Program-made: the position numbers and the translations under genes
In this document: positions 5,001-56,662 of the stretch, in pieces
Layout of the letters: the number at the start of each line of letters is the position of its first letter
Position numbering within the stretch: the stretch's first letter is position 1
The notes under the pieces: generated by a model
Databases searched by the model: none
What the model saw: the letters and a program-made list of their open reading frames with translations, nothing else
Told to the model about the DNA's origin: nothing
NCBI GenBank assembly: GCA_018883185.1
Contig: VEQP01000008.1
Span: 1 to 64,000 of the forward strand
DNA from: Nevskiaceae bacterium
Lineage (GTDB): Bacteria > Pseudomonadota > Gammaproteobacteria > Steroidobacterales > Steroidobacteraceae
Direction of reading: 5' to 3'
Length of the DNA: 64,000 bases

Positions 5001-5062
5001 GTGAGGACGACCCTTTGGTGTGGGCGGCCCTCTCCGTGGTGGGTGCGCCTCAGGCTCGCTGA
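2048..5062 (+). CDS. Secreted TPR-CHAT domain caspase-like protease
   Basis: The 1004-residue protein starts with a probable signal peptide (hydrophobic LALGALAALSSLSVLAQA at residues 14-31). A long helical middle with TPR-like segments follows (about residues 250-560, e.g. ALQRYAQAFEMYREQ). The C-terminal third is a CHAT domain (Caspase HetF Associated with TPRs). The caspase-type dyad is visible: His852 in FSTHG and Cys904 in LSACDTGN. The typical later CHAT motif GLARSFFYAGARSVMVSHW is also present. The ATG overlaps the stop of the surface-protein gene, so the two form one unit. In other bacteria CHAT proteases act in host-guest peptide cleavage or defence. Here, export and coupling to an adhesin suggest maturation or processing of that surface protein, which is inference. 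Confidence 0.88.
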   Translation: MTHAVCTHRRLMTLALGALAALSSLSVLAQAPVTAWLSKPSVNLGADPTGKACTARRLYGDPLLRDARRDLAYDISCGRSGGVGRIYVLGSQPKDTALKGWRDAVAPLCVGPRPQEWSPEGVTAEVSFFCAGGTAAGQRPATILLAASSPRGLLAGDSPPASAAVVERAIRILAGVEPEPTKARSRGPRSALLANLETVLGNDLAGGGFGDFASLRAAAFENNSMWLFGSAELQFADAIRIHAGLWPEDFAGRADLQSERALNLSNQRRFPEAERALAEAAQNAEKAEDLYLRAKVSAYAALTALNAGKLAEVRVRATQAREFIDAWRRSGQVERVQADQTIARLPVAARVTILESQMLRALAVAESRDKGLAAGRPGLAAAADSAANVDARAGSWLQSGLAQDRAALEIADGRADSAVRILEEALTRYRRIATGTRIEANLLMDLGGALQAAKREEEALQRYAQAFEMYREQTENRGVAPIRAMTYLTTLARKLPKVAKPEEAADLFAAFETLATPAVAQTAAATAARLLAGPNGGVIRSWQDADRSLRRALTRLSNLPADAPPDVKQTAEEDVATWRSRVETLEQQVNQLFPNFGLVTLEPVTLTTIQASLGPNERLLRIALGLESGIGLLIDRETVRVFEIGIGESKAAELVGRIKRSVKNEDVDFDSKAARLLFDGLFSKIAPELMADGAPERLIVDVTGALASLPFGVLSSGGGGESSEAWLARRFAMMAVPSMRAFVSSRAAGPSKGTVPFVGYGDFLPLASATAAPAITRSILNARRLPSGCEALLTSALAKLPRLAGTAAELEAVKRVIGADDRSVLLRNRFTDRNVLNSEQVAAARVLMFSTHGVFGTDFPEAAGCLPDAALLTSAVSDKAGVFLDSAQILDLKLDADLVVLSACDTGNPQPVAPGESGLPSGGDALSGLARSFFYAGARSVMVSHWPLPDIYTVKIMTVFFERLQAGDMAPEALRAAQVAQINSGEDDPLVWAALSVVGAPQAR

Positions 5063-5120
5063 CTGCGCGGCGTAAGGGTGCTGGGTTAAGATCGATGTGG
5101 GGTCGATAGCGGAGGGACTT

Positions 5121-5594
5121 ATGCGGAACATTCTCAGAAACGCCACCGTAGTGGCGCTTGGCATGCTGGGCGGCCTTGCGGCTGCGAGTGACTACATCGT
5201 GGCGCGCTCGACGGACGCCTCGATTATCAAAGGCACGGCGCTTGCGGCGGGAGCCGTGGTGCCGGCGGCGGTTGGTGCAGTGGTGACGCTCGTTTCGGCG
5301 GGCGGCGAGGTGGTGATTCTCAAAGGCACCGAAACCGGCATCAAGGTGCCGGGGCTGGCGAAGGCTGGCAGCAGCGCGGCGAGCGCTACGCTCGCGGCGC
5401 TCGTCAATCGGCCGCCACCGCGGCGCAACTTCGGCGCCATGCGCGGCAATGAGAAATGCCGCAGCGTCGAGGAGTTGCAGACCCTCGAGGCCATACTCGC
5501 GGTGTCGGAAATCGAGGGTTGCGGCCGCATGGCGCAGGCCGCCCTCGATGCGTACATCAGCAAGGCGGAAGCGGCAGCTGCGGCGACTCCTTGA
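5121..5594 (+). CDS. Small exported protein of unknown function
   Basis: The start is placed at ATG 5121 because GGAGGG lies at 5111-5116, 4 nt upstream. An in-frame ATG at 5097 has no such site. The 157-residue product begins with a signal peptide (NATVVALGMLGGLAAAS). An Ala/Gly/Val-rich beta-like region follows (GAVVTLVSAGGEVVILKG), then a basic Pro-rich hinge (RPPPRRN) and a helical C-terminus with two cysteines (KCRSVEEL and EGCGRM) that could form a disulfide. No family is recognised. It lies 58 bp after the CHAT gene, and its TGA overlaps the likely TTG start of the oxidoreductase. It could therefore belong to either module. Confidence 0.65.
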   Translation: MRNILRNATVVALGMLGGLAAASDYIVARSTDASIIKGTALAAGAVVPAAVGAVVTLVSAGGEVVILKGTETGIKVPGLAKAGSSAASATLAALVNRPPPRRNFGAMRGNEKCRSVEELQTLEAILAVSEIEGCGRMAQAALDAYISKAEAAAAATP

Positions 5595-7999
5595 GCGTTG
5601 AGCGTTTCCGGATCGCGATCGTCGGGGCTGGGCCTGGCGGTCTGAGTGCGGCCGCGCGGGCGGCCGAGCTTGGCGTGTCGCACGTGCTGCTCGAGCAGAG
5701 TCCGGCGCACGCCAACACCATCCAGCGCTATCAAAAGGGCAAGCACGTCATGGCGGAGCCCAACGTGCTGCCGCTGCGCAGTCCGTTGCAGTTCGCTGCA
5801 GGCGTTCGCGAGCGAATTCTCGACGACTGGGCGAGCGGTCTCGAGCGACTCGGGGTGAACCTGCGCTGCCAGAGCGAAGTCACACGTATTACCGGCGAGC
5901 GTGGCCAGTTCACTCTGACACTCCAGAGCGGTGAGACGCTGCATGCAGAGCACGTGGTTTTTTCCATCGGCGTGCAGGGCAATCCGCGTCGGCTTGGCGT
6001 ACCGGGGGACGAGCTGCCGTGCGTGCAGTACACGCTCGATGACCCTGACGAGTATCAGGGCGAGACCATCGTCGTCGTCGGCGCCGGCGATGCCGCGATC
6101 GAGAATGCCGTCGCACTCGCGAAGCAGAACCGCGTGTTCATCGTCAATCGTGCCGAGGAGTTTGCGCGCGTCAAGGATGGCAATCTGAGCCTGATACTCA
6201 AGGCCATCGACGAAAAGACTCTCGGGTGCTTTTACAAGTCGAGTTGCGTATCGGTGACGGCGACCGAGGGGGCCGAGACGCCCTACCTGCTGACCCTGGC
6301 AACGCCGGAGGGTGATACGGCCGTACCGTGTCATCGGATCATCGCGCGCATCGGCGCTGTACCGCCGCGCAAGTTCGTCGAGTCCTGCGGCATCCGCTTT
6401 CCATCGGCCGATGCCGCAGCGCTGCCCGAGCTCAGCGCCCAATACGAGTCGAACGTGCCAGGTCTCTACGTCATCGGCGCATTGGGCGGCTACCCGCTCA
6501 TCAAGCAGGCGATGAACCAAGGTTATGAGGTCGTCGGCTACATCCAGGGCGAGGCCGTGGAGCCTGCTGATGAGCCCTTGCTGGCTGAAAAGTTTGCCGC
6601 CCTCCCCGAGCGCTTGTCGGTGTCGGCAACACTGCAGCGGATGCAGCAGCGAATTGCGCTTTTTGCGGCAGTGAATCCGCTGATGTTCCGCGAGCTGATC
6701 CTCGGCAGCGCGGTGCATTGTCCGCGCGAGGGTGAGGTGGTCTTTCGCCGAAACGACTACACGAATTCGTTCTACACCATCCTCGATGGCAGCGTGCAGA
6801 TCGAAATCGGCGAGGAAGGTGAATCGCGGCGCATCACCCTCGGCACGGGCCAGTTCTTCGGCGAGGGCAGTTTATTGTCGGGTCGCCGGCGTTCAGCCAC
6901 CGTGTATGCAGGCGCGGGTTGTGTGCTCATCGAATCGCCGCGACGCGATATCGTCAAACTGATGAGTTCAGTGGATTCGGTGCGCTCGGTCATCGATCGT
7001 CTATTCATCGTCAGGGCCATCCAGAGCGGCTTCGCACCCAACACGCCTTTCGAGGTTCTCGAGACTATTGCCGCGCGTGCCCGACTGACGCGTTACAAAC
7101 GTGACGAAGCCCTCTTCAAGGAGGGTGAGCCCGGGGATAGGCTGCACTTGATACGCAGCGGCTCGGTGGCCGTATCGCGAAACTTTGGCGGCCGCGAGGT
7201 GACGCTCTCCTACGTCGCAGCGGGCAACTACGTGGGCGAGATGGGTTTGCTCGGCCGCACCTTGCGCAGTGCGACGGTCCGCGCCGCGGTGCCGACCGAA
7301 ACGGTCAGTCTCGATGCCGACACCTTTGCTGAACTCATGGCCCACAATCCCGCACTGCGCGCCGACATCGAGGCGGTCATGCGCAAGCGCATCGTCAGCA
7401 ACGCCCAAACGCAGTCAAGTACCGCAGGGGGAGATTTGATTTCGTTCCTGATGCGGCAGGGGCTAGGCGAGGCAACAGACGTACTGCTCATCGACGAGTC
7501 GTTGTGTATCGGCTGCGATAACTGTGAACAGGCCTGTGCCGCGACCCACGGCGGCACATCGCGCCTCGATCGAGCCGCAGGCCCGACCTTCGCCCATGTG
7601 CACGTGCCGACCTCGTGTCGGCATTGTGAGAATCCGCATTGCATGAAGGATTGTCCGCCCGATGCGATCCGTCGCGCCCCCAACGGCGAGGTCTACATCC
7701 GCGACAACTGCATCGGCTGTGGCAACTGTGAGCGCAACTGTCCCTACGGCGTGATCCACATGGCGAGCACTCCGCCCGCGCAGCCGTCGTTGTGGTCCTG
7801 GTTGCTGTTTGGCAGCGAAGCCCGCGCGACCGAGTCGGAAGGCAAAAGCAAGGCGCCGAAGAAAGCCGTCAAGTGCGACATGTGCAAGGACCAATCTGGC
7901 GGTCCTGCGTGCGTGCGCGCGTGCCCGACGGGTGCAGCGCTACGTGTGAGCCCCGCCGAATTCGTCGAGTTCGTCAGCAGCGAGGCGGCAGAGCGCTGA
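5591..7999 (+). CDS. FAD/NAD(P) oxidoreductase fused to two cNMP-binding domains and a four-cluster [4Fe-4S] ferredoxin
   Basis: The start is taken as TTG 5591, overlapping the preceding stop (TTGA) just before the FAD motif; an upstream in-frame start would lie deep in the previous gene. In the 802-residue product, residues 8-320 are a thioredoxin-reductase/YpdA-like flavoprotein, with GAGPGG at 12-17 and a second Rossmann motif VVGAGDAAIENA at 162-173. Two cyclic-nucleotide-binding folds follow (~358-455 and ~485-585), each with a phosphate-cassette-like motif (FGEGSLLSGRRRSAT; VGEMGLLGRTLRSAT). Residues 633-790 form an HybA/NrfC/DmsB-type ferredoxin with 16 cysteines in four groups, enough for four [4Fe-4S] clusters. 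No signal peptide or TM is seen, so it is cytoplasmic. It likely passes electrons between NAD(P)H and the cytochrome b encoded 1 bp downstream, gated by a nucleotide (inference). Confidence 0.85.
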   Translation: MSVERFRIAIVGAGPGGLSAAARAAELGVSHVLLEQSPAHANTIQRYQKGKHVMAEPNVLPLRSPLQFAAGVRERILDDWASGLERLGVNLRCQSEVTRITGERGQFTLTLQSGETLHAEHVVFSIGVQGNPRRLGVPGDELPCVQYTLDDPDEYQGETIVVVGAGDAAIENAVALAKQNRVFIVNRAEEFARVKDGNLSLILKAIDEKTLGCFYKSSCVSVTATEGAETPYLLTLATPEGDTAVPCHRIIARIGAVPPRKFVESCGIRFPSADAAALPELSAQYESNVPGLYVIGALGGYPLIKQAMNQGYEVVGYIQGEAVEPADEPLLAEKFAALPERLSVSATLQRMQQRIALFAAVNPLMFRELILGSAVHCPREGEVVFRRNDYTNSFYTILDGSVQIEIGEEGESRRITLGTGQFFGEGSLLSGRRRSATVYAGAGCVLIESPRRDIVKLMSSVDSVRSVIDRLFIVRAIQSGFAPNTPFEVLETIAARARLTRYKRDEALFKEGEPGDRLHLIRSGSVAVSRNFGGREVTLSYVAAGNYVGEMGLLGRTLRSATVRAAVPTETVSLDADTFAELMAHNPALRADIEAVMRKRIVSNAQTQSSTAGGDLISFLMRQGLGEATDVLLIDESLCIGCDNCEQACAATHGGTSRLDRAAGPTFAHVHVPTSCRHCENPHCMKDCPPDAIRRAPNGEVYIRDNCIGCGNCERNCPYGVIHMASTPPAQPSLWSWLLFGSEARATESEGKSKAPKKAVKCDMCKDQSGGPACVRACPTGAALRVSPAEFVEFVSSEAAER

Positions 8000-8000
8000 G

Positions 8001-8876
8001 ATGCATCAGTCGATCCTCGATTACGGTGGCCGGCGCTACCTGAAACTTGCCCTTGCGCTGTGCGGGCTCTCGCTGGTGCTCTATCTTTGGCATGACCCGA
8101 GATCGCCACCCAACGGTGGAACTTGGCTCGGCTACACCCTCGGCGGTGTCGGTGCGGCTTTGATTCTTTGGCTCACGGCGCTCGGCGTACGCAAGCGCAG
8201 CTATGCCTCGACGCTCGGGACCCTGCAGGGCTGGGTCAGTGCGCACGTGTATCTAGGTCTCGCCTTGCTCTGGGTGGCGACGCTGCACGCGGGCTTCCAA
8301 TTCGGTTGGAACGTGCACACGCTGTGTTACCTGCTGATGGTGGTGGTAATCGCCTCGGGCCTGCTCGGCATCGTGCTGTATCAGCGATTTCCGCAGCAGT
8401 TATCGCAGAATCGCGCCCAGCAGACTGCGGCACAGATGCTCACCGAACTACAGGAGCTCGACGAGCGAACGCGGCGTGTGGCGGCGAATGCGTCGGCCGA
8501 TGAGATCTCGGCGATCGATGCCAACATCGCCGGAACCCGCATTGGGGGGAGTACGGCGGCCATCTTGTCGGCGCGCGATCGATCGACGGTGCTGCTGCCA
8601 GGTGGGGCGTCGCAACCTGAGCCGAATCCGGCTCAGACCCGTATGCTCGAGTGGCTGAGTGCCCGACTGTCGGCAAGTGATGACCCGCTGCGTACGCGGG
8701 CACTGTCGGATCTGGTCTCACTGATCGGCGCTCGCCGCGCGCTGCTGCGTCGTTTGCAGCAGGACGCACGCTTACGCGGTTGGTTGTCGGTTTGGCTCTA
8801 TGTGCACGTCCCTGTGACTTTCGGCTTGCTCGGGTCGCTCATCGCTCACGTGGTCAGCGTGTTTCTTTACTGGTAG
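8001..8876 (+). CDS. Five-helix di-haem cytochrome b-type membrane protein
   Basis: This 291-residue protein has hydrophobic segments near 15-30, 43-62, 80-97, 106-127 and 264-288, with a soluble helical loop at ~130-250. Histidines fall at 82 and 96 in one helix and at 269 and 283 in the last. Both pairs are H-X13-H, the classical spacing for two stacked bis-His b haems; His106 is a further candidate. It starts 1 bp after the ferredoxin-type oxidoreductase and precedes a decahaem protein by 7 bp. It probably moves electrons between the cytoplasmic Fe-S protein, the quinone pool and the periplasmic haems. It matches no standard family I can name confidently; a cytochrome b561/ferric-reductase-like fold is possible. 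Confidence 0.75.
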   Translation: MHQSILDYGGRRYLKLALALCGLSLVLYLWHDPRSPPNGGTWLGYTLGGVGAALILWLTALGVRKRSYASTLGTLQGWVSAHVYLGLALLWVATLHAGFQFGWNVHTLCYLLMVVVIASGLLGIVLYQRFPQQLSQNRAQQTAAQMLTELQELDERTRRVAANASADEISAIDANIAGTRIGGSTAAILSARDRSTVLLPGGASQPEPNPAQTRMLEWLSARLSASDDPLRTRALSDLVSLIGARRALLRRLQQDARLRGWLSVWLYVHVPVTFGLLGSLIAHVVSVFLYW

Positions 8877-8883
8877 CCGGCTG

Positions 8884-10509
8884 ATGCGCATCCTGCTCAA
8901 ACACCTCACCCAGACGGCTGCCGGCACCGCATCGGTGCGGGAGCAGTGGGTCGATGACAGCATCATCACCGTCGGACGGGCGACCGATCAGCGTTTGCAG
9001 AGCAACGACACACGCCTGCAACTGCAGCACGCGGAACTGCGGCTCACGGCGACGGGTTGGCAACTGGTCTGCAATCCGCCGGCGCAGGCGGTGGTCAATG
9101 ACAAGGCCTGTCGCGATGCCCGACTTGTCCCGGGTGATCTCGTGACGGTCGGTCCGTTGCGTCTACGGATCGAGCCGCCCACTGTCGCGGGCGACGCGCA
9201 ACTGTCGGTCGAGCGACTCGATGAGCGTGCTGCGGTGTCGGCTGCCGTGCTGCGCGGTGAGGACGCTTCGATCGGACCGCCGAAGTTGTCGCTCGCCGAG
9301 GTCGGCTGGCGCAAACGGCCCTGGGCTTGGGCGTTGTTCCTGATCACGGTGCTCGGCGGTCTCGTGTTGCCGTGGACGGCGGGCGTGCCATCCGATGCCC
9401 GTTGGAGTTCGGGTCCTTTGCACGCGGCGCATGCCTCGCTTGAGGGACGCTGTGACAGTTGTCATGTCGAACCCTTCGTGCGCGTGCGCAACGAGTCCTG
9501 TCTGGATTGTCATGCCGATCACCTACGCACGCATCTGCCTGCGGATCACCCTGCAGCCGCGCAATTCAAGGCGCAGCGCTGCACGGACTGCCATGTAGAA
9601 CATGACGAACCGTCGAATCTGGTGCAGACCGACAACCGCGTCTGCACCGACTGCCACGCCGAACCTGCGCGTCATGGTGCGCGAGCCGGAGCAAAGCCGG
9701 TGACCGACTTCGCGCTCAACCATCCGCCGTTTCGCCTCAGTCAATTGAGTAGCGAGCAGCCCGCCTCGCAACTCAAGTTCACGCACGCGGCGCATCTCGA
9801 TGCGCGCGGCATCAAGACGCCTGAAGGAACGGTCGTCATGCAATGTGCCGACTGCCACACACCCACCGAGGAAGGACGCGGTTTTCAGCCGATTCGCATG
9901 GAGACGCATTGTGCGTCCTGCCATCGTCTCGAGTTCGATCCTGCGGAACCTGCGCGCACGGTGCCGCATGGCGATCCCACTGAAGTGTTGCGCGTGCTGA
10001 GCGGTCACTACAGCGCCCGCTATCTTGCGGGCTATGCGGATCCGCTCGCAGGGCGCACTTCAGCCGTGCTGCCACCCGGTGTGGATGTCGCGCCTGCCGA
10101 GCGCGCGCGCCTGCTGGGCGTGGCACGCGACCGTGCCCTGCGGGTGGCGAGTGATCTCTTTGAGCGGCGAGTCTGCGTGGATTGTCATACGGTCACCCGC
10201 TCAGGCACGGCCGCGGAGCCGGCGTGGAAGGTTACATCGGTCAAGCTGGTGTCGAACTGGATGCCCAGCGCGCAGTTCGATCATGCCCTGCATGGCACCT
10301 CGCTCACGCCCTGCAGCACGTGTCACAAGGCTGAGACATCGAAGCAGGCAAGCGATGTGTTGATGCCGGCGATTGAGACCTGTCGCGATTGTCATCGCGG
10401 CACGATGGCGACCGCCTGCATCGACTGTCATGGGTTCCACGGTAAAGGACAACCGCTGTGGCAGCCCGCCACGATCAAGACGGTGCTGCGCAAGGCTAGG
10501 GCGCCGTGA
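8884..10509 (+). CDS. FHA-like domain/TM/decahaem cytochrome c fusion
   Basis: In this 541-residue protein, residues 1-98 resemble an FHA domain (ITVGRATDQR at 28-37; HAELRL at 49-54; VNDKACRD at 71-78; PGDLVTVG at 83-90). The usual Ser-x-x-His is degenerate (LQLQHA), so phosphothreonine binding is doubtful. A single TM segment spans 147-167 (WAWALFLITVLGGLVLPW). Ten CXXCH motifs follow, at about residues 190, 206, 233, 254, 321, 343, 431, 477, 500 and 512. With no cleavable signal, the likely topology is FHA in the cytoplasm and haems in the periplasm. The stop overlaps the next gene (GTGA). It likely receives electrons from the membrane cytochrome b and hands them on in the periplasm. Confidence 0.85.
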   Translation: MRILLKHLTQTAAGTASVREQWVDDSIITVGRATDQRLQSNDTRLQLQHAELRLTATGWQLVCNPPAQAVVNDKACRDARLVPGDLVTVGPLRLRIEPPTVAGDAQLSVERLDERAAVSAAVLRGEDASIGPPKLSLAEVGWRKRPWAWALFLITVLGGLVLPWTAGVPSDARWSSGPLHAAHASLEGRCDSCHVEPFVRVRNESCLDCHADHLRTHLPADHPAAAQFKAQRCTDCHVEHDEPSNLVQTDNRVCTDCHAEPARHGARAGAKPVTDFALNHPPFRLSQLSSEQPASQLKFTHAAHLDARGIKTPEGTVVMQCADCHTPTEEGRGFQPIRMETHCASCHRLEFDPAEPARTVPHGDPTEVLRVLSGHYSARYLAGYADPLAGRTSAVLPPGVDVAPAERARLLGVARDRALRVASDLFERRVCVDCHTVTRSGTAAEPAWKVTSVKLVSNWMPSAQFDHALHGTSLTPCSTCHKAETSKQASDVLMPAIETCRDCHRGTMATACIDCHGFHGKGQPLWQPATIKTVLRKARAP

Positions 10510-12491
10510 TCCGCAGCCCCGTGATTTCTTTGTTCGCAGCGCTCGCGCTCACGGCCTGCGGGGGTGGCAGTGGCAGCGGTGCGCCGGCGGCGGGGAGCGC
10601 GGGCGTGGTACCGCTGTCGTGCGATGGCTCCTGCGCCAATTCAAGTACGGCGCTATCGGTGACGCAGGTCGAGACCGTGATTGCCCGGGCCATCGTCGAG
10701 GCGCAGGCTCGCAACGCGCGGGCGACCATTGCCGTGGTCGATCGAGTCGGCAATGTGCTTGCCGTGTATGCGATGAATGGCGCTTCGCCGAACGTCACCG
10801 TACGCAGTAAGCAAGGTGCCGCAGACGTCGACGGTGGGCTCGAGAATGTCACCGTCGTGCCTGCGACGCTCGCCGCGATCGCCAAGGCGATCACCGGTGC
10901 TTACTTGTCGAGCGAGGGCAACGCCTTCAGCACCCGCACCGCGAGCCAGATCGTGCAGGCGCATTTCAATCCGGGTGAAGTACTCACGCCGGGTGGTCCC
11001 CTGTTTGGCGTGCAGTTCAGTCAGTTGCCCTGCTCGGATGTGGCCACGCGGTTTCAGGGCGGCGCGACAAGTGTGGGGCCGCAGCGCTCACCACTCGGTC
11101 TATCGGCTGATCCCGGCGGCTTTCCACTGTATCTCGACGGCACGCCGGTCGGGGGTGTCGGCGTGGTGGCTGATGGCGTGTATGGCCTCGATGCGAACCC
11201 GCTCGATCGTGACGACGATCTCGATGAGGCCATTGCCGTGGCCGCGACCGTGGGACTTGCTGCGCCCGAGGATCGTCGCGCCGATCGCATTACCGCCGAT
11301 GGGAAAACCTTGCGTTTCAGCGATATCGAAGTCGCCGATCTGCGCGGTGGCAGCAACACGCCTCCCACGCTTGCCGCGCAGGGTGCCGCCGTGGGGCGCC
11401 TCGTGGCAGTCAGTGGTTATGCCACTGCGAGTGTTCGTGCCGGCACCGCCTTTGGTCAGAGTGCTTCCGGGATACGCGCCGACAGCCGCGACTACGCCGG
11501 CCTCGATGCCTTCGTGCTCGTCGATGCTGCGAACACGGAGCGCTTCCGGCCGCGCGCGGGCAGCGAGGCGAGCGGAGCGCTGAGTGCAGTTGAAGTGCAG
11601 CAGGTGTTGAGTTCGGCGCTGCGTGTGGCAGCACGCGCGCGAGCGCAGATACGCAGGCCGCTCGGCACACCTGCGCGGGTGAGCATTGCCGTCGTCGATT
11701 CGAACGGCGTGCTGCTCGGGCTTGTGCGCACTCGCGATGCACCGGTGTTCGGCATCGATGTGGCCGTGCAGAAGGCGCGTACGGCCGCTTTTTTCTCGTC
11801 ACCCCGTGCGGCGACGATCCTGCAATCATTGCCGCCCGCGGTGTATCTCGATCGAGGTCTCGTGCGCTTGCGGGCGGTCGCTCCGGTGAGTTACCTGCCC
11901 GCGATGCGTAATCTGCTCGGAGTGCCAACCGTGCTAGGCGATGGCCAGATCGCCTTTTCGGCGCGGGCGATCGGCAATCTCGCCAGACCGAACTTCCCGG
12001 ATGGGGTCGACGGCAATCCACCGGGTCCGCTGTCGAAGAGCGCAGGGCAGTGGAGTCCCTTCAGCACGGGACTGCAACTCGATCTCGTGTACAACGCGAT
12101 CATCCAGCATGTCGCCTTCGTTGCGGGTATCGCGCCCGATGTACCGGCGCAGTGCGCGGGCATCAGCGGTTTTGATGCCGGGTTCAGCGCCCAATCGGTG
12201 CCGGCGCTGTTGGCGAACGGCGTGCAAATTTTCCCGGGTGGCGTGCCGATCCATCGCGGCGAAGTGCTCATCGGCGCCATCGGCGTGTCGGGTGATGGTA
12301 TCGATCAGGATGACATGATCGCCTTCCTTGGCCTCGCGCAGGTGGGCTTTCCCGCGGGAGGGCCGCAGCATCCGCTCGCCTCGCGCCGTGCCGACCAACT
12401 GGCGCCGAACGGTGCGCGATTGCGCTATGTGAGTTGTCCGCAGTCGCCGTTTCTGGATTCGAGCGAGCAGGAGCCCTGTCGTGGGCTGTGA
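10506..12491 (+). CDS. Lipoprotein with two GlcG/HbpS-type (haem-degrading family) domains
   Basis: The start is GTG 10506, overlapping the previous stop by 4 bp. The 661-residue product has a lipoprotein signal with lipobox LTAC at residues ~15-18, then GGGSGSG. Two regions match the GlcG/HbpS (DUF336, Haem_degrading) pattern. The first begins LSVTQVETVIARAIVEAQ and contains TIAVVDRVGNVLAV and GGVGVV. The second begins near LSAVEVQQVLSSAL, contains SIAVVDSNGVLLGLV and closes with GEVLIGAIGVSGDGIDQDD. HbpS-like proteins bind haem or act in redox sensing. Here, amid about 25 c-type haems, a role in haem capture, assembly or a redox scaffold is plausible. Two such domains with long insertions in a lipoprotein are larger than the usual ~140-residue single-domain form. 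Confidence 0.75.
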   Translation: MIRSPVISLFAALALTACGGGSGSGAPAAGSAGVVPLSCDGSCANSSTALSVTQVETVIARAIVEAQARNARATIAVVDRVGNVLAVYAMNGASPNVTVRSKQGAADVDGGLENVTVVPATLAAIAKAITGAYLSSEGNAFSTRTASQIVQAHFNPGEVLTPGGPLFGVQFSQLPCSDVATRFQGGATSVGPQRSPLGLSADPGGFPLYLDGTPVGGVGVVADGVYGLDANPLDRDDDLDEAIAVAATVGLAAPEDRRADRITADGKTLRFSDIEVADLRGGSNTPPTLAAQGAAVGRLVAVSGYATASVRAGTAFGQSASGIRADSRDYAGLDAFVLVDAANTERFRPRAGSEASGALSAVEVQQVLSSALRVAARARAQIRRPLGTPARVSIAVVDSNGVLLGLVRTRDAPVFGIDVAVQKARTAAFFSSPRAATILQSLPPAVYLDRGLVRLRAVAPVSYLPAMRNLLGVPTVLGDGQIAFSARAIGNLARPNFPDGVDGNPPGPLSKSAGQWSPFSTGLQLDLVYNAIIQHVAFVAGIAPDVPAQCAGISGFDAGFSAQSVPALLANGVQIFPGGVPIHRGEVLIGAIGVSGDGIDQDDMIAFLGLAQVGFPAGGPQHPLASRRADQLAPNGARLRYVSCPQSPFLDSSEQEPCRGL

Positions 12492-14313
12492 ATTCACAGG
12501 CGGTAAAGCGCGCATCGGTTGGAGCCTGCTGTGCGCGCTGCCGATGCACGCAACGGCTGCCGATTTGCCCTTGAGCGATTCCGCCAACGCGCCCGAGTCA
12601 AGCGCCGCTGCGCAGCCCTGTCCGCCGCCTGAGATCGCTGAGCCGCGTCGGCGCAGCCCGCGTATTCCGGTGCTTCCGTACGAGCCCACGCCCTGCGACG
12701 CAACGCGTCTGCCCCCGTCACCACTCGAGCAAAGTGGGGCTCTTCAAGGCTTGCCAGATCGCTGGCGATTGATCGAAAGCATTGGCATCCCCGATAACTG
12801 GATCGACCCGTATCACGGCAACAACCCGCTCAAGGGCGATCGACCCATTTTTGGCGAGGACTGGTTCCTCGCGATCATTGGCGTGTCGGATTCGGTGATC
12901 GAGCCGCGGCAGTTTCCCGTGCCGGTTGGCGGGCCCGTGACCGAGAGGGCAGGTTCACTCGACACCTTCGGTGAGGGACGGCAGCAGGTCTACGCGCAGA
13001 CTTTCGCGCTCGAGACCGTGCTCTATCAAGGCGATACGGTGTTCAAGCCTCCCGACTGGGAATTTCGGCTCACGCCGGCGGTGAACATCAATCATGTGGT
13101 CGTCGAGGAGCGTGGTCTGCTCAAGGCCAACGTCGATGCGCGCCGTACGCGTACGGAGTCGGCGGTGGGCTTGCAGGCCGCTTTCGTCGACAAGCACTTG
13201 CGTAATGTCTCTGATCGATACGATTTCGATAGTCTGCGAGTCGGTGTACAGCCGTTCACGGCGGATTTTCGCGGCTTCCTGCTCAATGATAGTTTGTTTG
13301 GGGTGCGCCTCTTCGGCATCCGCGACGACAACCGCTGGCAATACAACCTCGCGTGGTTCCGCCGCATCGACAAAGACACCAACAGCGGCTTGAACGATCT
13401 GATCGAGCGCGGTGCAGCGGCGCTGCGCGACGATGATGTATTCGTCGTCAACGCGTACTACCAGGACTGGCCTCGCCTCGGCTTCACCGTGCAGGGCACG
13501 ATCCTGCACAACCGCAATCGCGAGGGCGGCGAACTGACCTACGACGGCAACGGCATCATTCAGCGTCCGATGTCGCTCGGCCTTGAGCGGCCGCGTGAAT
13601 ACGAAGTGACCTACCTTGGCGCCTCGGGCGATGGGCATTTAGGTGGCATCAACCTCTCGACCAGCGCATATCTCGCACTCGGCAACGCGAATCGCGGCGT
13701 GTTCGTCGATCGGCCTGAGCAGATCCGTGCCGGCTTCGGCGCAGCGGAGATCTCCAAAGACTTCTCTTGGATCCGTGCGCGAGCCTCGCTGGCCTGGGCC
13801 TCCGGGGATCCAGATCCATTCGATGGACGGGGTGAGGGCTTCGATGCCATTTTTGAAAATCCTTTGTTTGCCGGGGCGGATACGAGCTTCTGGATTCGTC
13901 AGCCGGTGCCGCTGATCGGGGGTGGGCGCGTGGCGCTCTCCGGCCGCAATGGCTTGCTCAACTCGCTGCGCCCCTCGAAGGAGTTCGGTCAATCCAACTT
14001 CGTCAACCCTGGGCTGCGGCTTGCAGGCGTGGGCGTAGACCTCGATCTCACGCCGACTTTGCGCGTCAGCGGCAATCTCAACTATTTGGCGTTCGACGAC
14101 ACGGCCGTGCTCGAAGTGGCCCGTGCCCAAGGTGGTATCGATCGCGAGATTGGACTCGATGCGTCGCTGGCCGTGATCTGGCGACCGCTGGCCATACAGA
14201 ATGTGGTGGCCCGTTTGTCGGTGGCCTCGCTGGTGCCGGGCAGCGGCTACAAAGCGCTGTATGGCGATAAGACGGCGTACTCGGTATTGGGCAATCTGGT
14301 GTTGACGTACTGA
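12481..14313 (+). CDS. Predicted outer-membrane beta-barrel protein of the multihaem cluster
   Basis: The GTG start at 12481 overlaps the lipoprotein gene by 11 bp. The 610-residue product has an N-terminal hydrophobic export segment (GWSLLCALPMHATAADLP at residues ~13-30) and a Pro-rich linker. A long series of alternating amphipathic strands follows, rich in Tyr, Trp, Asp and Asn (NLAWFRR, VVNAYYQDW, LSTSAYLALG, LRVSGNLNYLAF). It ends in the aromatic terminus LVLTY, typical of outer-membrane barrels. No family is recognised with certainty. Its place between periplasmic and secreted multihaem cytochromes suggests an MtrB/PioB-like sheath for electrons to cross the outer membrane, although no sequence similarity to MtrB can be claimed by eye. 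Its stop overlaps the next ATG by 1 bp. Confidence 0.65.
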   Translation: MGCEFTGGKARIGWSLLCALPMHATAADLPLSDSANAPESSAAAQPCPPPEIAEPRRRSPRIPVLPYEPTPCDATRLPPSPLEQSGALQGLPDRWRLIESIGIPDNWIDPYHGNNPLKGDRPIFGEDWFLAIIGVSDSVIEPRQFPVPVGGPVTERAGSLDTFGEGRQQVYAQTFALETVLYQGDTVFKPPDWEFRLTPAVNINHVVVEERGLLKANVDARRTRTESAVGLQAAFVDKHLRNVSDRYDFDSLRVGVQPFTADFRGFLLNDSLFGVRLFGIRDDNRWQYNLAWFRRIDKDTNSGLNDLIERGAAALRDDDVFVVNAYYQDWPRLGFTVQGTILHNRNREGGELTYDGNGIIQRPMSLGLERPREYEVTYLGASGDGHLGGINLSTSAYLALGNANRGVFVDRPEQIRAGFGAAEISKDFSWIRARASLAWASGDPDPFDGRGEGFDAIFENPLFAGADTSFWIRQPVPLIGGGRVALSGRNGLLNSLRPSKEFGQSNFVNPGLRLAGVGVDLDLTPTLRVSGNLNYLAFDDTAVLEVARAQGGIDREIGLDASLAVIWRPLAIQNVVARLSVASLVPGSGYKALYGDKTAYSVLGNLVLTY

Positions 14314-17300
14314 TGATGATCCACAGCATGCGTATTCGTCCCGCTCTCGTTGCGTCGCTCGCCCTGCTCGCGGGTGCGCTGCTCGTCGTAGATCGGGCGC
14401 ACACCAGCGAGGAGAGCAAAGCCGTTCCGCGCGTGTATCGCGAGGCGCCACCTGCGCCCGCAAGGCAGACTGCGGCGGATGCCACGGCGAAAAGCGCGGG
14501 CTGTCTCGACTGTCACACCGCGACTGACCAGCCGACCATGCACGCCAACCCCGGCGTAGTACTGGGCTGTACCGATTGTCACGGTGGCGACGCCGCCGTG
14601 CGCTGGTCGGCGGGTAACGACGGCGATGCGCGGCACGGTGCCGATGCCAGCGAACGTAAGGACTATGTGTCGGCGCGCGATCAAGCACACGTACTGCCGC
14701 GTTACCCGGATGCATGGAAGTTTCCTTCGAGCGCCAATCCGGAGCGCACCTACGCGCTGCTCAACAAGGAAAGTCCGCAGTTCATCCGCTTCATGAACCC
14801 TGGCGACTACCGGGTGGCGATGGAGTCTTGTGGTGCCTGTCACGAGAAGACCATCAAGGATGCCGCGCGCAGCCTGATGGCGACCTCCACCATGTTCTGG
14901 GGCGGTGCGGCCTACAACAACGGCTTGCTGCCCTACAAGCAGTACATCCTCGGTGAGGGGTACACGCGCGATGGCCACGCCGCGATCATCGAAGGCGCGG
15001 CATCAACGCCCGAGCAGCGCGAGCGTTTCGAAATCGTCGAGAAGGTGTATCCGTTGCCGCGCTGGGAGAATCTGCCGCCGGCGGACGTATTCCGCGTCTT
15101 CGAGCGCGGTGGTCGCAACATTTCGAATCTCTTTCCGGAAACGGCACTGCCGAACGTGGCCGGAGCGATCCAGCGACTCGAAGAGCCGGGACGTCCTGAT
15201 CTCAAGCAGTCGAACCGCGGGCCGGGCACGGGCGCGCGCATTGCCGTGCCCGTACTCAACATTCACAAGACGCGGCTCAACGATCCGCTGATGTGGTTCA
15301 TGGGCACGAACGACAACCCCGGCGACTACCGCAACTCGGGCTGCAGCGCCTGTCATGTGGTGTACGCCAATGATCGCGATCCGCGGCACTCGGGCCCGTA
15401 CGCGGCGTTCGGGCACGCGGGACAAACGCAGAGCGCGGATCCGACGATCCCGCGCGAGCGCAGCGGACACCCCTTGAAGCATTCGTTCTCGCGAGCCATT
15501 CCGACGAGCCAGTGCATGATCTGCCACATGCACCAGCCGAACATGTTCATGAATAGTTTCCTCGGCTACACCATGTGGGACTACGAGTCCGACGCTCCGT
15601 CCATGTGGCCCGAGGAGCAGCAGTTTCCGAGCGCTGCGCAGATACGCAAGGTGCTTGATCGCAATCCCGAGGGTGCGGCGCCGCGTGGCAAATGGGCAGA
15701 TCCCGAGTTCTTGAGCAAAGTCAGTGAGCTCAATCCCTCACTCAAAGACACTCAGTTCGCTGACTACCACGGTCACGGTTGGAACTTCCGTGCCATCCAC
15801 AAGCGCGATCGTGCAGGCAACCTGCTCGATGCCGAGGGGCGCATCGTCTCCGCGGATGATCCGCAGAAGTGGAGCAAGACGGTGCAGATGGCCTCGATTC
15901 ACGTCGATGTCGGCATGCATTGCGTTGATTGCCACTATGCGCAGGACTCCCACGGCAACGGCCACTTGTACGGGTCGGTGGCCGCAGCCGTGGAGATCGA
16001 CTGCAAGGACTGCCACGGCACGACAGCCTCGCGGGCGACCCTACGTACCTCCGGTCCCGCAGCGTCGTCGATCAGCAACGACCTGTCGCTGATCCGAAAC
16101 CCCGATGGTTCGCGCCGCTTCGAGTGGCGCGGCGAGACACTGATCCAGCGCTCAGCGGTCACACCGGGTCTCGAGTGGGAAGTGTCGCAGGTCAAAGATT
16201 CTGTCACGCCGGGCAATGCCCACTACAACGCCAAGGCGGCGCGTGCGAAGACGATGTCCCGCGATCCGCAGGGGCAGAAATGGGGGCCGGATATTCCATG
16301 GGAGATGCTGGCCCATAACGACGACAAGATGGAGTGCTACGCCTGTCACACCTCGTGGACCACGAGTTGCGGGGGCTGTCATCTACCGATCGAGGCGAAT
16401 TGGAAGACCGCAAGGCACCGGTACGAGGGCGGCGAGACGCGCAACTACGCCACGTACAATCCGCAGGTGGCCCGCGAAGATATCTTCATGCTCGGGCTGC
16501 GCGGGCCCAGTGAGGGCGGCAAGATCGCGCCCGTGCGTTCATCCTCGGCGCTCGTGCTGTCGTCGAAGAATTCCAACCGCGAGCGCATCTACGTGCAGCA
16601 GCCGCCGATCTCGGCCTCGGGCTACAGCTCACAGGCGATGAACCCGCATTATCCGCACACCGAGCGCAAGACCGAGACCAAGACTTGCAGCGACTGCCAC
16701 CTCGCGCGGGGCGGCGACAACAACGCCATCGTGGCGCAGACGCTCGGCTACGGCACCCAGTTCATCAACTTCGTGGGTCTCAATGCCTGGGTGGGCACGG
16801 CGAAGGGTGTGGCTGCTGTGGAGGTGACTGAGTACGAGGAGCCACAAGCGGTGATCGGCAGTTATCTGCACCGCTATGCCTACCCGAAGTGGTATCGCGA
16901 ACATCTCGCACGCGATCGTCGCCTGCGCACGGCAAGCCAGCTTTCGGGTGAAGCGGTCGGCTGCGTGCAGGTGCGTGGTGAGTATCTGTTCAGCGCCGAA
17001 GGCTCGCGAGGCCTACGCGTGCTCGATGTGGCCAGCGTCGCCAACAAGGGGTTCAGCCAAAAGATTGTCAGCGCGCCGTTTTCACCGCTCGGTCACGACA
17101 CATCCGTGCCGAGCCGTAACGCCACCTGCGTCGCCTTGCCGACCACCCAGCCCGTGCATCCGGCGCGCAACGAGGGTGAGCTGATGCGCAAGGCTAACCT
17201 CGAGCAGCCCTTTTTGCCGATCTACAACTACGCACTCGTGACCGATGCCGAGGAGGGGCTGATTCTCGTCGACATCAACACCTTGGCCGACGGCGAATTC

Positions 17301-18086
17301 CGCAATAATTTTTTGACTCGCACGCTCACCTGGAACCCTGACGGCAAACTGACCGGTGCTCGTCAGCTCATCATTGCTGGCAATACGGCTTATGTGCTCA
17401 CACCACAGGCTCTGCGGGTGGTGGATCTCAGCGTGCCCACTGCGCCGCGGTTGCTTGCCGAGCAGCCACTTGAGGACCCGCGCGCACTGGCGCTGCAGTT
17501 CCGGTATCTGTTCGTCACCACGGCGCGAGGGCTTGAAGTGCTTGATGTCACTCGACCGACCGCCCCGCGTTTAATGACGAGCGCGCAGGTGTCGCTCGCA
17601 AACGCGGCGGGCCTCACGGTATCGCGAACTTTTGCGTATGTGGCCAACGGCGCCGCAGGACTCGCGATTATCGACGTCGAGCGACCGGAGCGGCCACGCC
17701 TCGTACAATCTTGGAACGCGCAAGGTGCGCTCATCGATACCCGCGATGTGATGATCGCCTCGACCAATGCATCGCTCTTTGCGTACCTCGCCGATGGGCG
17801 TGGCGGTCTTAAAGTGGCGCAGTTGACGAGCCCGGCGAGCCAACCCAATTTCTATGGCTTCAGTCCGCAGCCGAAACCTGAGTTGATTGCCCGCTATGCC
17901 ACCCGCGCGGCGGCGTTGTCCTTGTCACGCCCGCTTGAGCGCGATCGGGCTGTGGATGAAAGCGGTGGACAGGTGGCCGTGTTCGGCCGGCGCGGCTCGC
18001 GGCCATTCACGCTGGCGGAGATGCAGCGGCTGTATCTCGATGACGAGGGGATGCCGTGGTTCGTCGACGATGAGGTGAAGCCATGA
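14313..18086 (+). CDS. Decahaem cytochrome c with C-terminal LVIVD-type repeats
   Basis: This 1257-residue protein has a signal peptide (ALVASLALLAGALLVVDRAHTS, residues ~9-30). Ten CXXCH motifs are visible: CLDCH, CTDCH, CGACH, CSACH, CMICH, CVDCH, CKDCH, CYACH, CGGCH and CSDCH, from about residue 63 to residue 795. From about residue 880 the sequence changes to repeats of the form [hydrophobic]-A-GLxVLDV-[ST]-xPxxPRL, e.g. ARGLEVLDVTRPTAPRL and AAGLAIIDVERPERPRL. This is the LVIVD/beta-propeller type found in secreted proteins. It is probably periplasmic or cell-surface and a terminal component of the electron conduit; the propeller could bind a partner or substrate. It overlaps the barrel gene (1 bp) and the next cytochrome gene (4 bp). 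Confidence 0.88.
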   Translation: MMIHSMRIRPALVASLALLAGALLVVDRAHTSEESKAVPRVYREAPPAPARQTAADATAKSAGCLDCHTATDQPTMHANPGVVLGCTDCHGGDAAVRWSAGNDGDARHGADASERKDYVSARDQAHVLPRYPDAWKFPSSANPERTYALLNKESPQFIRFMNPGDYRVAMESCGACHEKTIKDAARSLMATSTMFWGGAAYNNGLLPYKQYILGEGYTRDGHAAIIEGAASTPEQRERFEIVEKVYPLPRWENLPPADVFRVFERGGRNISNLFPETALPNVAGAIQRLEEPGRPDLKQSNRGPGTGARIAVPVLNIHKTRLNDPLMWFMGTNDNPGDYRNSGCSACHVVYANDRDPRHSGPYAAFGHAGQTQSADPTIPRERSGHPLKHSFSRAIPTSQCMICHMHQPNMFMNSFLGYTMWDYESDAPSMWPEEQQFPSAAQIRKVLDRNPEGAAPRGKWADPEFLSKVSELNPSLKDTQFADYHGHGWNFRAIHKRDRAGNLLDAEGRIVSADDPQKWSKTVQMASIHVDVGMHCVDCHYAQDSHGNGHLYGSVAAAVEIDCKDCHGTTASRATLRTSGPAASSISNDLSLIRNPDGSRRFEWRGETLIQRSAVTPGLEWEVSQVKDSVTPGNAHYNAKAARAKTMSRDPQGQKWGPDIPWEMLAHNDDKMECYACHTSWTTSCGGCHLPIEANWKTARHRYEGGETRNYATYNPQVAREDIFMLGLRGPSEGGKIAPVRSSSALVLSSKNSNRERIYVQQPPISASGYSSQAMNPHYPHTERKTETKTCSDCHLARGGDNNAIVAQTLGYGTQFINFVGLNAWVGTAKGVAAVEVTEYEEPQAVIGSYLHRYAYPKWYREHLARDRRLRTASQLSGEAVGCVQVRGEYLFSAEGSRGLRVLDVASVANKGFSQKIVSAPFSPLGHDTSVPSRNATCVALPTTQPVHPARNEGELMRKANLEQPFLPIYNYALVTDAEEGLILVDINTLADGEFRNNFLTRTLTWNPDGKLTGARQLIIAGNTAYVLTPQALRVVDLSVPTAPRLLAEQPLEDPRALALQFRYLFVTTARGLEVLDVTRPTAPRLMTSAQVSLANAAGLTVSRTFAYVANGAAGLAIIDVERPERPRLVQSWNAQGALIDTRDVMIASTNASLFAYLADGRGGLKVAQLTSPASQPNFYGFSPQPKPELIARYATRAAALSLSRPLERDRAVDESGGQVAVFGRRGSRPFTLAEMQRLYLDDEGMPWFVDDEVKP

Positions 18087-19426
18087 GCTCGATGAGCGCA
18101 GCACGATCTACCCCGTCCCGTAGCCGCGCCATGGGCTTCGCGATGCGCTGGTTGCTGACGATGCTGCCAGTGATCGGGTTTGCCGCCGATTCGGCGAGTG
18201 CGCCGGCGCGCTTCGAGGGCGTGGCGAGCTGCGCCTCGTCCCTGTGCCACGGCTCTGCGCGGCCCTTGAGCGCGCACGACGTCCTGCAAAACGAATACGT
18301 GACCTGGTCGCAGTTCGACCCCCACTCCAGCGCGTATCGCGTATTGCTGGAGCCACGCAGTCGACAGATCGCCGAACGGATGGGCCTCGGTCCGGCGCAC
18401 AAGGCGCCGCAATGCCTTGCCTGCCATGCGGAGGTGGTGCCGGCGGCACGTAGCGCTGCGCGACATCAGCTGAGCGATGGCATCGGTTGCGAGAGTTGTC
18501 ACGGCGCGGCGGAGCGATGGCTGCCCACGCATCATCAATCCCCGGCAGTCAGCCACGCGGATAATCTGGCGCGCGGCCTCGTCGCGCTCGAACAGCCTCG
18601 GGTGCGCGCTGAAGTGTGCACCGGCTGTCACGTCGGTGATCGCAACCGCTTTGCCAATCACGCCATGATGGCCGCAGGGCATCCGCGACTGGTGTTTGAC
18701 CTTGAGACCTACACTGAACTGTGGCGCACCAGCGGCGGGCGCGAGCACTATCGCAAGCGCAGTGCGCAACCGCCCGCGGTTTGGCTGACTGGAATCATTA
18801 GTGCCACGCGCCGACAGTTCGAGTTGCTCGATGCGCATGCGGCACGCAGCCTGAGGGCTGACTTTTCCGTTTATGCCTGCCACACCTGTCATCGTGATCT
18901 GCGTGTCGCGGCTTTCGGTGCGGCTGAGGCGGGCGCATCGCGGGCAGTCGACCCGCTGGCCGGCGCGCCCGGAGAGCTGCGCATGCAGGATGGGCAGCTG
19001 CGCTTGCTGCTGGTAATCGCTGATGCGCTGCAACTCGATTCGCGCGAGCTCACGGCGGCAACGCGGCGGCTGCAAGCGGCCTTGAACCGTGACCCCGCTC
19101 AGCTGCCTGCCGCGCTGAGCGAGGTGCGTCAAAAACTGGAGGCTCTTGGGGCTGAACTGACGCGGCGAACATGGACGCAACGCGAGTCGCGCGTGGCGTT
19201 TGACGCGTTGCTGCGTGCGGCGCGCAGCGGCAGTTTTCCGGACCCCGCAGCGGCAGAACAGGCGGCCATGGGGCTCGTCATGCTGCTTGCGGAGCTTGAT
19301 CTCGATCGATCTCGCAGCGCTGAGATCGATGCGCTGTTTGCAACACTCCGCGATGACAACGCCTTCGATGGCCGCCGGTTTGCCCGCGTGCTCGAACAGT
19401 TGGAAAAGTCCGCTGCGATGAGATGA
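18083..19426 (+). CDS. Pentahaem cytochrome c, c554-like, with one CX4CH site
   Basis: The 447-residue product has a signal peptide (MRWLLTMLPVIGFAADSASA after a basic N-terminus). Five haem-attachment sites are seen: an atypical CASSLCH (CX4CH) near residue 51, then CLACH, CESCH, CTGCH and CHTCH. The spacing and the phrase SQFDPHSSAYRVL resemble cytochrome c554-type multihaem domains. The last ~130 residues are haem-free and helical (LQLDSRELTAATRRLQAAL). It is the last gene of the redox cluster; its ATG overlaps the previous stop by 4 bp, and the convergent mgtE ends only 9 bp downstream. It is probably a periplasmic electron shuttle or a small reductase/oxidase subunit; the substrate is unknown. 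Confidence 0.82.
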   Translation: MSSMSAARSTPSRSRAMGFAMRWLLTMLPVIGFAADSASAPARFEGVASCASSLCHGSARPLSAHDVLQNEYVTWSQFDPHSSAYRVLLEPRSRQIAERMGLGPAHKAPQCLACHAEVVPAARSAARHQLSDGIGCESCHGAAERWLPTHHQSPAVSHADNLARGLVALEQPRVRAEVCTGCHVGDRNRFANHAMMAAGHPRLVFDLETYTELWRTSGGREHYRKRSAQPPAVWLTGIISATRRQFELLDAHAARSLRADFSVYACHTCHRDLRVAAFGAAEAGASRAVDPLAGAPGELRMQDGQLRLLLVIADALQLDSRELTAATRRLQAALNRDPAQLPAALSEVRQKLEALGAELTRRTWTQRESRVAFDALLRAARSGSFPDPAAAEQAAMGLVMLLAELDLDRSRSAEIDALFATLRDDNAFDGRRFARVLEQLEKSAAMR

Positions 19427-42868: not shown

Positions 42869-42869
42869 C

Positions 42870-55735: not shown

Positions 55736-56662
55736 GTGGATCCTCGCGTGAGGCTCGTGCTGTTTCTGCGTCGTGCTGCGGGTGCGTCGCGCATCGACGT
55801 GTCTGGGCCACTGGTGTTCGGCGTGTCCGGTGCTGCCGTGCTGCTGCTGGTCGTTGGGGCGTTCTTTGCCGGCTTGCAGCTGGGCTCGCGTTCTGAGGTG
55901 CTCTCGGCCGGATCCCCCGCCGAGCTCGCGCGGGCCGCGCTGCAGCAGCGCGCCGAAGTCGAGGCGATGCGTCAACGCGTGCAGGAGCGAGTCGATTCGA
56001 TCGCCGCGCGCATCGGCCAGGTCAACGCTCATGTGGTTCGCCTCGATGCGCTCGGCAAGCGCCTCGTCGAGATGACCGATCTCGATTCGCACGAATTTTC
56101 TTTCGATACGCTGCCGGGAACGGGCGGACCGGAGTCGGCCGAAGCGATCGCCGGCGAGATTCCTGACGTGTCGCGCATGCTCGATTCGCTTGAGTCGAAG
56201 CTTGCCCAGCGCGACGCGCAGCTCGGCGTGCTGGAAAGCCTCATTTTGCAGCGTGATTTGCGTCGTCAGACGCAACCCGAGGGTCGGCCGGTGGCGCGCG
56301 GTTTTCTGTCCTCGGTTTTCGGGTTGCGACAGGATCCGGTATCGGGTCAGACCGAATTTCATCGTGGCATCGATTTCGCCGGGGAGCCGGGCGAGCCCGT
56401 GCTCGCGGTGGGCGCGGGTGTCGTGACCTTCTCGGGTGAGCGCCAGGGGTACGGCAAGGTTGTCGATGTGACCCATGGCGATGGGTACGTCACCCGCTAT
56501 GCGCACAATCAGCGATTGCTGGTGCGCGTCGGCGACACGGTGCGCCGCGGCCAGCCGGTGGCCCATCTGGGCTCGACGGGGCGGTCCACCGGACCGCACG
56601 TGCATTTCGAGGTGCTGCGCAACGGCCGGCACGTCAACCCGTTGTCCTATATCGACGGTTGA
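55736..56662 (+). CDS. M23 family peptidoglycan endopeptidase, membrane-anchored
   Basis: GTG 55736 is the first in-frame start codon before the TM helix; GTG 55748 is an alternative, and neither has a clear ribosome site. The ~308-residue product has a short basic cytoplasmic N-terminus, one TM helix ([20 protein letters not shown]), a coiled coil ([20 protein letters not shown]) and a C-terminal LytM domain with zinc motifs FHRGIDF (HxxxD) and HVHFE (HxH). It probably cleaves peptide cross-links or acts as an amidase activator. It is divergent from dciA and upstream of secA, a usual place for this family. Confidence 0.88.

Follow-up and report, generated by a model that had tools for sequence, protein, structure and literature searches.

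A 64,000-nucleotide stretch of a Nevskiaceae genome (positions 1 to 64,000 of contig VEQP01000008.1, assembly GCA_018883185.1; hereafter the window) carries seven genes on its + strand, A to G, at positions 5591-19426, each of which touches or overlaps the next. We lean towards the view that they encode an NAD(P)H-driven electron transfer chain across the whole cell envelope, which ends in a porin-multihaem complex at the outer membrane and is probably controlled by cyclic nucleotides (cNMP). Direct support comes from the parts themselves, their invariant ligands, their co-occurrence across genomes and a natural fusion of A and B. The cluster is widespread, and no description of the seven-gene set was found in a search of the open-access literature, with subscription papers and preprints outside its scope.

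Organization of the cluster and haem content

The window belongs to a genome of 2.8 Mb in 71 contigs that is about 90% complete. According to the list of open reading frames (ORFs), A and B are 1 nt and B and C 7 nt apart, followed by overlaps of 4 nt (C/D), 11 nt (D/E), 1 nt (E/F) and 4 nt (F/G). An earlier interpretation, made from the DNA alone (the sequence-only reading), had described seven such near-touching or overlapping genes and about 25 c haems; all seven ORFs were found in place, and the haem count was borne out. C and F each contain ten CXXCH motifs, and G contains four CXXCH and one CX4CH. The pentahaem nature ascribed to G thus holds with the correction that its fifth site is a CX4CH. 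At the DNA level the haem motif occurs 31 times in the window versus 4.84 expected (the maximum of 100 shuffles was 11); 26 of the 31 lie inside C, F and G, 24 of those in frame. CcmF, which serves haem attachment, is present in the genome.

Conservation and gene order

Relatives of F were detected in at least 594 loci of a collection with one genome per species. The best 80 were retained, so that identities are biased upwards; 79 are filed under Pseudomonadota and one under Acidobacteriota. Surrounding genes were checked by tblastn in these and in two sphingomonad plasmids, many of the 82 loci being cut by contig ends. F was found in 82, E in 78, D in 67, C in 61, A in 59, B in 57 and G in 56. 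A stricter count gave all seven genes in 37 of the 82 loci, in the order of the window in 30. Where a locus extended 9 kb or more upstream of F (54 loci), E was present in all 54, each of A, B, C and D in 52 and G in 35; A to E occurred together in 50, two loci were without A-C and two without a recognisable D. From these counts we concluded that A-F are the core of the cluster and that G is often absent nearby. G was not near F in 19 of the 54 loci, which corrects the seven-gene set of the sequence-only reading. The genes are co-conserved and not scattered, though the set is split in some genomes. In Sphingobium it forms two opposed units, G-D-E-F and A-B-C, and on a Sphingopyxis plasmid only G-D-E-F was found nearby.

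Close relatives gave a similar picture. A protein search for F in 60 related genomes yielded matches in 27, of which 24 were strong (E-value 2e-232 or better, the window's own included); weak, partial matches were seen in genomes G049, G057 and G058. In tblastn maps of 12 related genomes A-G stood in order in ten, while G008 was cut by the contig start. In G034 only F, with an in-frame TGA, and G were found on a 19.7 kb contig (locus L033, G034:C21), with an intact A on another contig. Among 59 relatives A was present in 21 of the 23 F carriers; of the 36 others, G011 contained part of a strong A match and three contained weak matches to the FAD part only. One family had F in 33 of the 99 genomes examined.

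A sample of 398 Pseudomonadota genomes contained F in 11, E in 12 and A in 15. All 11 F carriers had A (Fisher p 1.6e-18, uncorrected for kinship); in G455, G408 and G273 the two genes lay on separate contigs or were over 600 kb from each other. The E carriers were the 11 F carriers and G213. The latter genome, listed as complete, has A-B-C-D-E running to a contig end (L138, G213:C20) and F was not found elsewhere in it; its F may be unassembled. Haem-copper oxidase (COX1) was present in 11 of 11 carriers tested, seven of them from the family with F in 33 genomes, indicating that they are able to use oxygen.

Pairwise distance correlations were 0.67-0.83 within A-B-C, 0.71 for F-G and 0.23 for A-F. 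Together with gene content they suggest two submodules, an inner one of A-B-C, which is also found alone, and an outer one of D-E-F, often joined by G. In the 398-genome sample A-B-C without E or F genome-wide was seen in G093 and in one copy in G060 (D was searched locally), the second G060 copy having A without B or C nearby. G212, another A carrier, likewise had neither E nor F. The outer submodule never occurred without A in this sample. In loci L139, L140 and L141 from other proteobacteria A-B-C or A alone was found without E or F, A and B being fused in one genus.

The tree of F (77 rows) required 5 class changes, with 3 as the possible minimum and 15.4 in shuffles, which argues for mostly vertical descent. 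A phage or mobile-only origin was rejected in view of this tree, the lack of a phage match and the restriction of full-length copies on plasmid records to Sphingobium and Sphingopyxis. A record titled as a Klebsiella pneumoniae metagenome-assembled genome (L038) contained A-G with an F 81% identical to that of the window, with which it groups in the F tree; the bin name is probably wrong.

Orthologue alignments were built from 93 loci, i.e. 80 of the at least 594 loci, the two plasmids, the window and ten further genome stretches; two of the 93 can share one genome (L027 and L055 look alike). ORFs below 1000 (F), 500 (E), 550 (D), 700 (A), 450 (C), 380 (G) and 250 (B) amino acids (aa) were omitted, as were ORFs masked by longer false ORFs in the greedy selection, and start sites were set mechanically. 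The numbers of rows, 87 (F), 70 (E), 64 (D), 58 (A), 59 (C), 50 (G) and 50 (B), hence differ from the tblastn counts.

The proposed inner part: proteins A, B and C

Protein A (5591-7999, 802 aa) matched Pfam families for two cNMP domains, Pyr_redox and Fer4; its FAD/NAD(P) module is of the pyridine-nucleotide-disulphide type and resembles YpdA and TrxR. Sixteen Cys are invariant across 58 orthologues, equivalent to four [4Fe-4S] sites. A transmembrane (TM) stretch was looked for in A and none was found. From the Pfam and NCBIfam matches, conservation and the fusion with B, A is predicted to be a cytoplasmic FAD/NAD(P) oxidoreductase with two cNMP domains and four [4Fe-4S] clusters.

Protein B (8001-8876) is a membrane protein of 291 aa. 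The B of the window gave b561 hits in Pfam below threshold, and the b561-type family Ni_hydr_CYTB was matched by 18 of 22 orthologues; a profile search of solved structures returned no convincing relative. The invariant His are His106 and two pairs, His82/His96 and His269/His283, with one pair in each of two helices. Because both pairs share the H-X13-H spacing of two stacked b haems, B is predicted to be a di-haem cytochrome b. In genome G093 A and B are naturally fused in one ORF of 1118 aa, with A residues 2-802 followed by B over 810-1118. G212, of the same genus, has both in one open frame of 1125 aa, and the two fusions may go back to one event. The sharing of a reading frame is good evidence that A hands electrons to B. 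A short G212 locus holds A, B and the beginning of C. An apparent G-A fusion in L099 was discarded, since the coordinates put its two stretches out of frame.

Protein C (8884-10509) starts with an FHA domain, followed by one TM segment at residues 146-169 and by ten CXXCH motifs; Pfam matched FHA and cytochrome c7/c3. On the basis of Pfam and conservation the FHA domain is predicted to be cytoplasmic and the decahaem part periplasmic. Ten CXXCH were present in 56 of 59 orthologues; the remaining three had nine and, in addition, a longer motif. Ten further His are conserved at 98-100%, equal to the number of haems. In L064:5779-6228 and six further loci, mostly alphaproteobacterial, C and D are separated by a member of a small protein family (about 150-217 aa); one member was checked and had no Pfam match.

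Probable control by cyclic nucleotides

The Glu and Arg required in a cNMP phosphate-binding cassette are found in A. Gly and Arg of the motif were conserved in 58 of 58 orthologues in both domains, and Glu in 57 of 58 in domain 1 and 43 of 58 in domain 2. CHASE2 proteins were encoded at most 30 kb from A or F in 8 of the 11 carriers compared with 0.86 expected by position, where the 30 kb limit was set after the positions had been seen and seven of the 11 carriers are one family. The CHASE2 proteins beside the cluster in L016, L025, L085 and L105 had a class III cyclase domain in four of four cases. The linkage of such cyclases to the cluster supports the idea, which we consider plausible, that cNMP controls the electron flow. 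The presence of CHASE2 alone is weak support because CHASE2 is common (227 of 398 genomes; 11 of 11 carriers versus 216 of 387 others) and because of the predominance of one family.

The sequence-only reading had proposed signal-controlled electron flow through both the cNMP and the FHA modules. The conserved motifs and the linked cyclases strengthen the first part, while a phosphothreonine (pThr) switch in the FHA domain is weakened. The domain profile still matches GarA-type FHA (E-value 3e-6), yet the Arg of the GR motif was conserved in 37 of 59 C orthologues, the His in 41 and the Ser at -3 from this His in 4. Because the canonical Ser is absent and the Arg often so, a structural role of this degenerate domain appears more likely, and the candidate function of a pThr reader was rejected.

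The proposed outer part: proteins D to G

Protein D (10506-12491) has the lipobox LTAC, and lipobox-like sequences were present in 39 of 64 orthologue ORFs, in line with a predicted lipoprotein. It contains three HbpS-like stretches (Pfam) and four invariant Cys, and no CXXCH. Its solved relatives include EfgA and HbpS-type proteins. Unlike the HbpS, GlcG and EfgA proteins, D is a large lipoprotein in which the stretch occurs more than once and which has the invariant Cys; haem binding by D is putative.

The E of the window (12481-14313) on its own matched no Pfam family, and a sequence search yielded no solved relative. Its structure model (mean pLDDT 72.6) shows 18 strands of at least 9 residues. 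In the fold search (Foldseek) AlgE came first with an E-value of 1e-14 and a TM-score by target of about 0.66, up to 0.68, followed by Occ/OprD porins. Alginate_exp was matched by 6 and DESULF_POR1 by 11 of 24 orthologues. Identity to the AlgE chains was only 12-14%, and within the 398-genome sample E orthologues at E-values up to 1e-20 were found only with this cluster. The most conserved stretch, as judged by eye, is a long loop around residues 441-511. The model and the orthologue families describe E as a specialised porin-like beta-barrel predicted to reside in the outer membrane.

Protein F (14313-18086) is, from Pfam and NCBIfam matches and conservation, a predicted decahaem cytochrome, with matches to c3 and to LVIVD, the latter as a C-terminal beta-propeller. 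Ten CXXCH occurred in 87 of 87 orthologues, with about 14 further conserved His for the ten haems. No solved relative was found by sequence search. F was 54-59% identical in sphingomonads and, among the retained loci, 60-66% in other alpha- and betaproteobacteria. For Geobacter, fast change of extracellular multihaem proteins has been stressed (PMC12977616) and frequent replacement of surface components described (PMC6148476). The strong conservation of F, as judged by raw identity, suggests a fixed partner or substrate.

Protein G (18083-19426) matches Pfam C554 and is predicted to be a cytochrome c554-type protein. Its four CXXCH and one CX4CH were found in 50 of 50 orthologues, along with five further invariant His, equal to the haem number. 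An Mtrc-MtrF domain was hit only at an E-value of 0.04, below the cut-off. Taken together, all or nearly all orthologues of C, F and G keep the ligands that their motifs predict, so that 25 bis-His c haems appear possible, with no clear catalytic five-coordinate haem among them.

Comparison with known systems

The cluster has decahaem cytochromes and an outer-membrane barrel in common with MtrCAB, PioAB and MtoAB. One stretch of C matches chain 6r2q_A (E-value 8.9e-7), which we take to be MtrA although the file names it otherwise. In Mtr, electrons enter from quinol through CymA, whereas the input here would be a cytoplasmic flavo-iron-sulphur protein, and C is anchored in the inner membrane by its TM helix. 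C also scored 28.2 bits versus a cut-off of 192.2 for decahem_SO, the MtrA/DmsE-type periplasmic decahaem family. MtrB_PioB (PF11854) was matched by 0 of 24 E orthologues at E-values up to 1, nor by the E of the window, and MtrB was not in the best 50 Foldseek matches of E; PF11854 was found elsewhere in the genome of 1 of 11 carriers (E-value 6.6e-4). F begins with a common signal-type sequence, and Pfam gave it no match of the MtrC type, in contrast to a surface lipoprotein cytochrome of the MtrC/OmcA type. An Mtr, Pio or Mto conduit was therefore rejected, no Mtr family model being reached and E being modelled as AlgE-like. In a wider sense the cluster may be a porin-cytochrome chain, as its multihaem cytochromes are genetically tied to an outer-membrane barrel: of the 12 genomes with E in the sample of 398, 11 also have F.

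None of the catalytic families of NrfA, HAO, Otr, TtrA or DmsA was found above cut-off in the seven proteins by Pfam and NCBIfam (for A, the best 25 families per list). Known nitrite, tetrathionate, dimethyl sulphoxide or hydroxylamine enzymes were thus rejected. On both counts our data agree with the sequence-only reading, which had placed the cluster outside the Mtr/Omc set and outside the nitrite, tetrathionate and dimethyl sulphoxide systems.

A closer counterpart is extHIJKLMNOPQS of Geobacter sulfurreducens, in which a porin-like barrel, several multihaem cytochromes, a lipoprotein and a cytochrome b likewise form one conserved cluster (PMC5877670). The components listed in that paper include a Rieske protein, and among them is no flavo/cNMP/iron-sulphur, FHA-decahaem, HbpS-like or LVIVD propeller protein. 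A distant relationship links the haem part of F to ExtM, which has 12 haems compared with ten in F; in 32 of 32 orthologues this part matched the NCBIfam ExtM model. The scores remained far below the equivalogue cut-offs, with 63.1 of 800 bits for ExtM, 23.6 of 200 for ExtN and 24.4 of 200 for ExtO, i.e. the cluster is related to the Ext systems and not a member.

Neighbouring genes

Three + strand genes upstream of A are possible accessories. They are the C-terminal part of a filamentous-haemagglutinin-like exoprotein (3-2051), cut by the contig start and without a Pfam hit; a CHAT-TPR protein (2048-5062; Pfam), with a CHAT protein also near the Sphingobium cluster; and a small exported-looking protein overlapping A (5120-5594). 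The exoprotein end motif C.IG.GA.C ... NEDLW and the C-terminal motif ATLAAL..GA.RG of the small protein are common to the window and to Sphingobium L016 (L016:5683-6402 and 8393-14671). Out of 150 sequences only the window, with its second copy, and Sphingobium matched these motifs, which had been picked after seeing both.

After G, some Gammaproteobacteria have a PP2C phosphatase (19 of 93 loci) and a twin-FHA protein (15 of 93), for example at L062:14965-15978 and L078:16339-17385. A glutamate dehydrogenase gene precedes A or G on the same strand by 26 to 352 bp in L017:8953-10425, L025:6517-7932, L096:3-734 and L112:2-592, and lies within about 3.3 kb in five other loci; it may be connected with the supply of NAD(P)H. 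Further downstream the window contains ordinary dcw-type cell-wall and division genes (38131-49027; penicillin-binding protein, Mur ligases, FtsW and MurG types) and SecA (56475-59528).

Proposed electron flow and alternatives

In the chain that we favour, A would take electrons from cytoplasmic NAD(P)H via FAD and its four [4Fe-4S] clusters, gated by a cyclic nucleotide on its two cNMP domains, and would pass them to the two haems of B in the membrane. From B they would cross to C, whose ten haems would face the periplasm at the inner membrane, and continue, directly or via G, to the ten haems of F. At the outer membrane F would work together with the barrel E, which resembles porins, and with the lipoprotein D to reduce an acceptor located on the cell surface or close to it. 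We infer the direction of flow, the donor NAD(P)H, the sequence of transfer from C via G to F, the contact of F with E, cNMP gating and the acceptor. Of the cytoplasm-to-outer-membrane conduit proposed by the sequence-only reading, the conserved trans-envelope redox chain is supported by the joint occurrence of A-E (50 of 54 loci) and by A in all 11 F carriers, while the arrival of electrons at the surface is a step that we infer.

Several points weigh against this chain. F has an in-frame stop in G034 and G042, and no A was found in the F carriers G002 and G043, which are 86% and 82% complete. The distance correlation of B with G (0.61) crosses the proposed submodules. The use of NAD(P)H by A is suggested by family resemblance. 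The model of E, AlgE/Occ-like with about 18 strands and not of the MtrB type, does not indicate a cytochrome inside the barrel. The strand number alone does not rule out a conduit, because Geobacter ExtB is likewise predicted to have 18 transmembrane domains (PMC6148476). The haem part of F was poorly modelled (mean pLDDT 58), so that beta-propeller proteins, cytochrome cd1 among them, came up among the best 50 matches of its fold search. Identities of 54-66% between the F proteins of different proteobacterial classes contrast with the rapid change of extracellular cytochromes in Geobacter and speak against a freely exposed reductase. Finally, since all 11 carriers tested have haem-copper oxidases, anaerobic respiration is not an obvious use of the cluster.

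The main rival is a periplasmic reductase, a real if minor possibility, in which the pore of E would admit a small acceptor such as an oxyanion or a metal complex, and F would reduce it with electrons from A-B-C. It parallels the discussion of the Geobacter ExtI cluster, and the resemblance of E to substrate porins and of the F haem part to ExtM in all 32 members fits it, as does the strong conservation of F, expected of an enzyme with a fixed substrate. Moreover, the porin-like ExtI of the ExtM cluster is described as necessary for normal selenite and tellurite reduction (PMC5877670). However, the similarity to ExtM is far under the family cut-off (63 versus 800 bits), and no conserved haem of F is clearly without a sixth ligand, given about 14 extra conserved His for ten haems.

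Inward flow, i.e. oxidation of an extracellular donor by F, E and D with reduction of NAD(P)+ or another cytoplasmic acceptor by A in lithotrophy or electron uptake, we regard as unlikely. All parts are reversible in principle, and by record title some carriers are Limnobacter, a bin labelled Nitrosomonas and another titled Biocath; yet the named carriers are mostly not known as lithotrophs, electrons from most donors would have to go uphill to reach NAD(P)+ via bis-His c haems, and one would expect a pathway connected to the quinone pool.

It is very unlikely that the cluster is a redox-sensing or surface-control system, in which electron flow reports on or modifies surface proteins encoded nearby (candidates are the linked two-partner-secretion exoprotein, CHAT, FecR, PP2C, FHA and cyclase genes), for although PP2C and twin-FHA genes recur beside the cluster, CHASE2 lies within 30 kb in most carriers, and exoprotein and CHAT occur in both the window and Sphingobium, the signalling genes vary by lineage while A-F mostly stay, and twenty-five haems would be a costly sensor.

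Implications

The observation is real, and stronger than the sequence-only reading could know. The cluster is widespread and, within the open-access literature searched, undescribed. MHCscan reports 440 gene clusters without a FeGenie homologue and may list this one unnamed (PMC11475568). In sediment Woeseiaceae, the family of two named loci (L055 and L059), mtrA, mtrB and mtrC have been reported (PMC12175321).

Envelope electron export is usually studied in metal-reducing anaerobes. A more far-reaching idea, which we put forward as doubtful, is that the cluster represents a separate and widespread exporter of oxygen-using Proteobacteria including the sphingomonads. It would be fed by NAD(P)H and not by the quinone pool, be switched by cyclic nucleotides from an adjacent surface-sensing cyclase, and deliver electrons at the outer membrane for uses other than respiration, e.g. 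reduction of surface metals or formation of extracellular superoxide. Such an exporter would be a bacterial counterpart of NADPH oxidase spanning two membranes. The set of genes is small enough to be tested directly. If the chain that we favour is true, oxygen-using bacteria would gain a dedicated, switchable outlet for electrons from NAD(P)H, which could bear on mineral weathering, extracellular oxidants and bioelectrochemistry.

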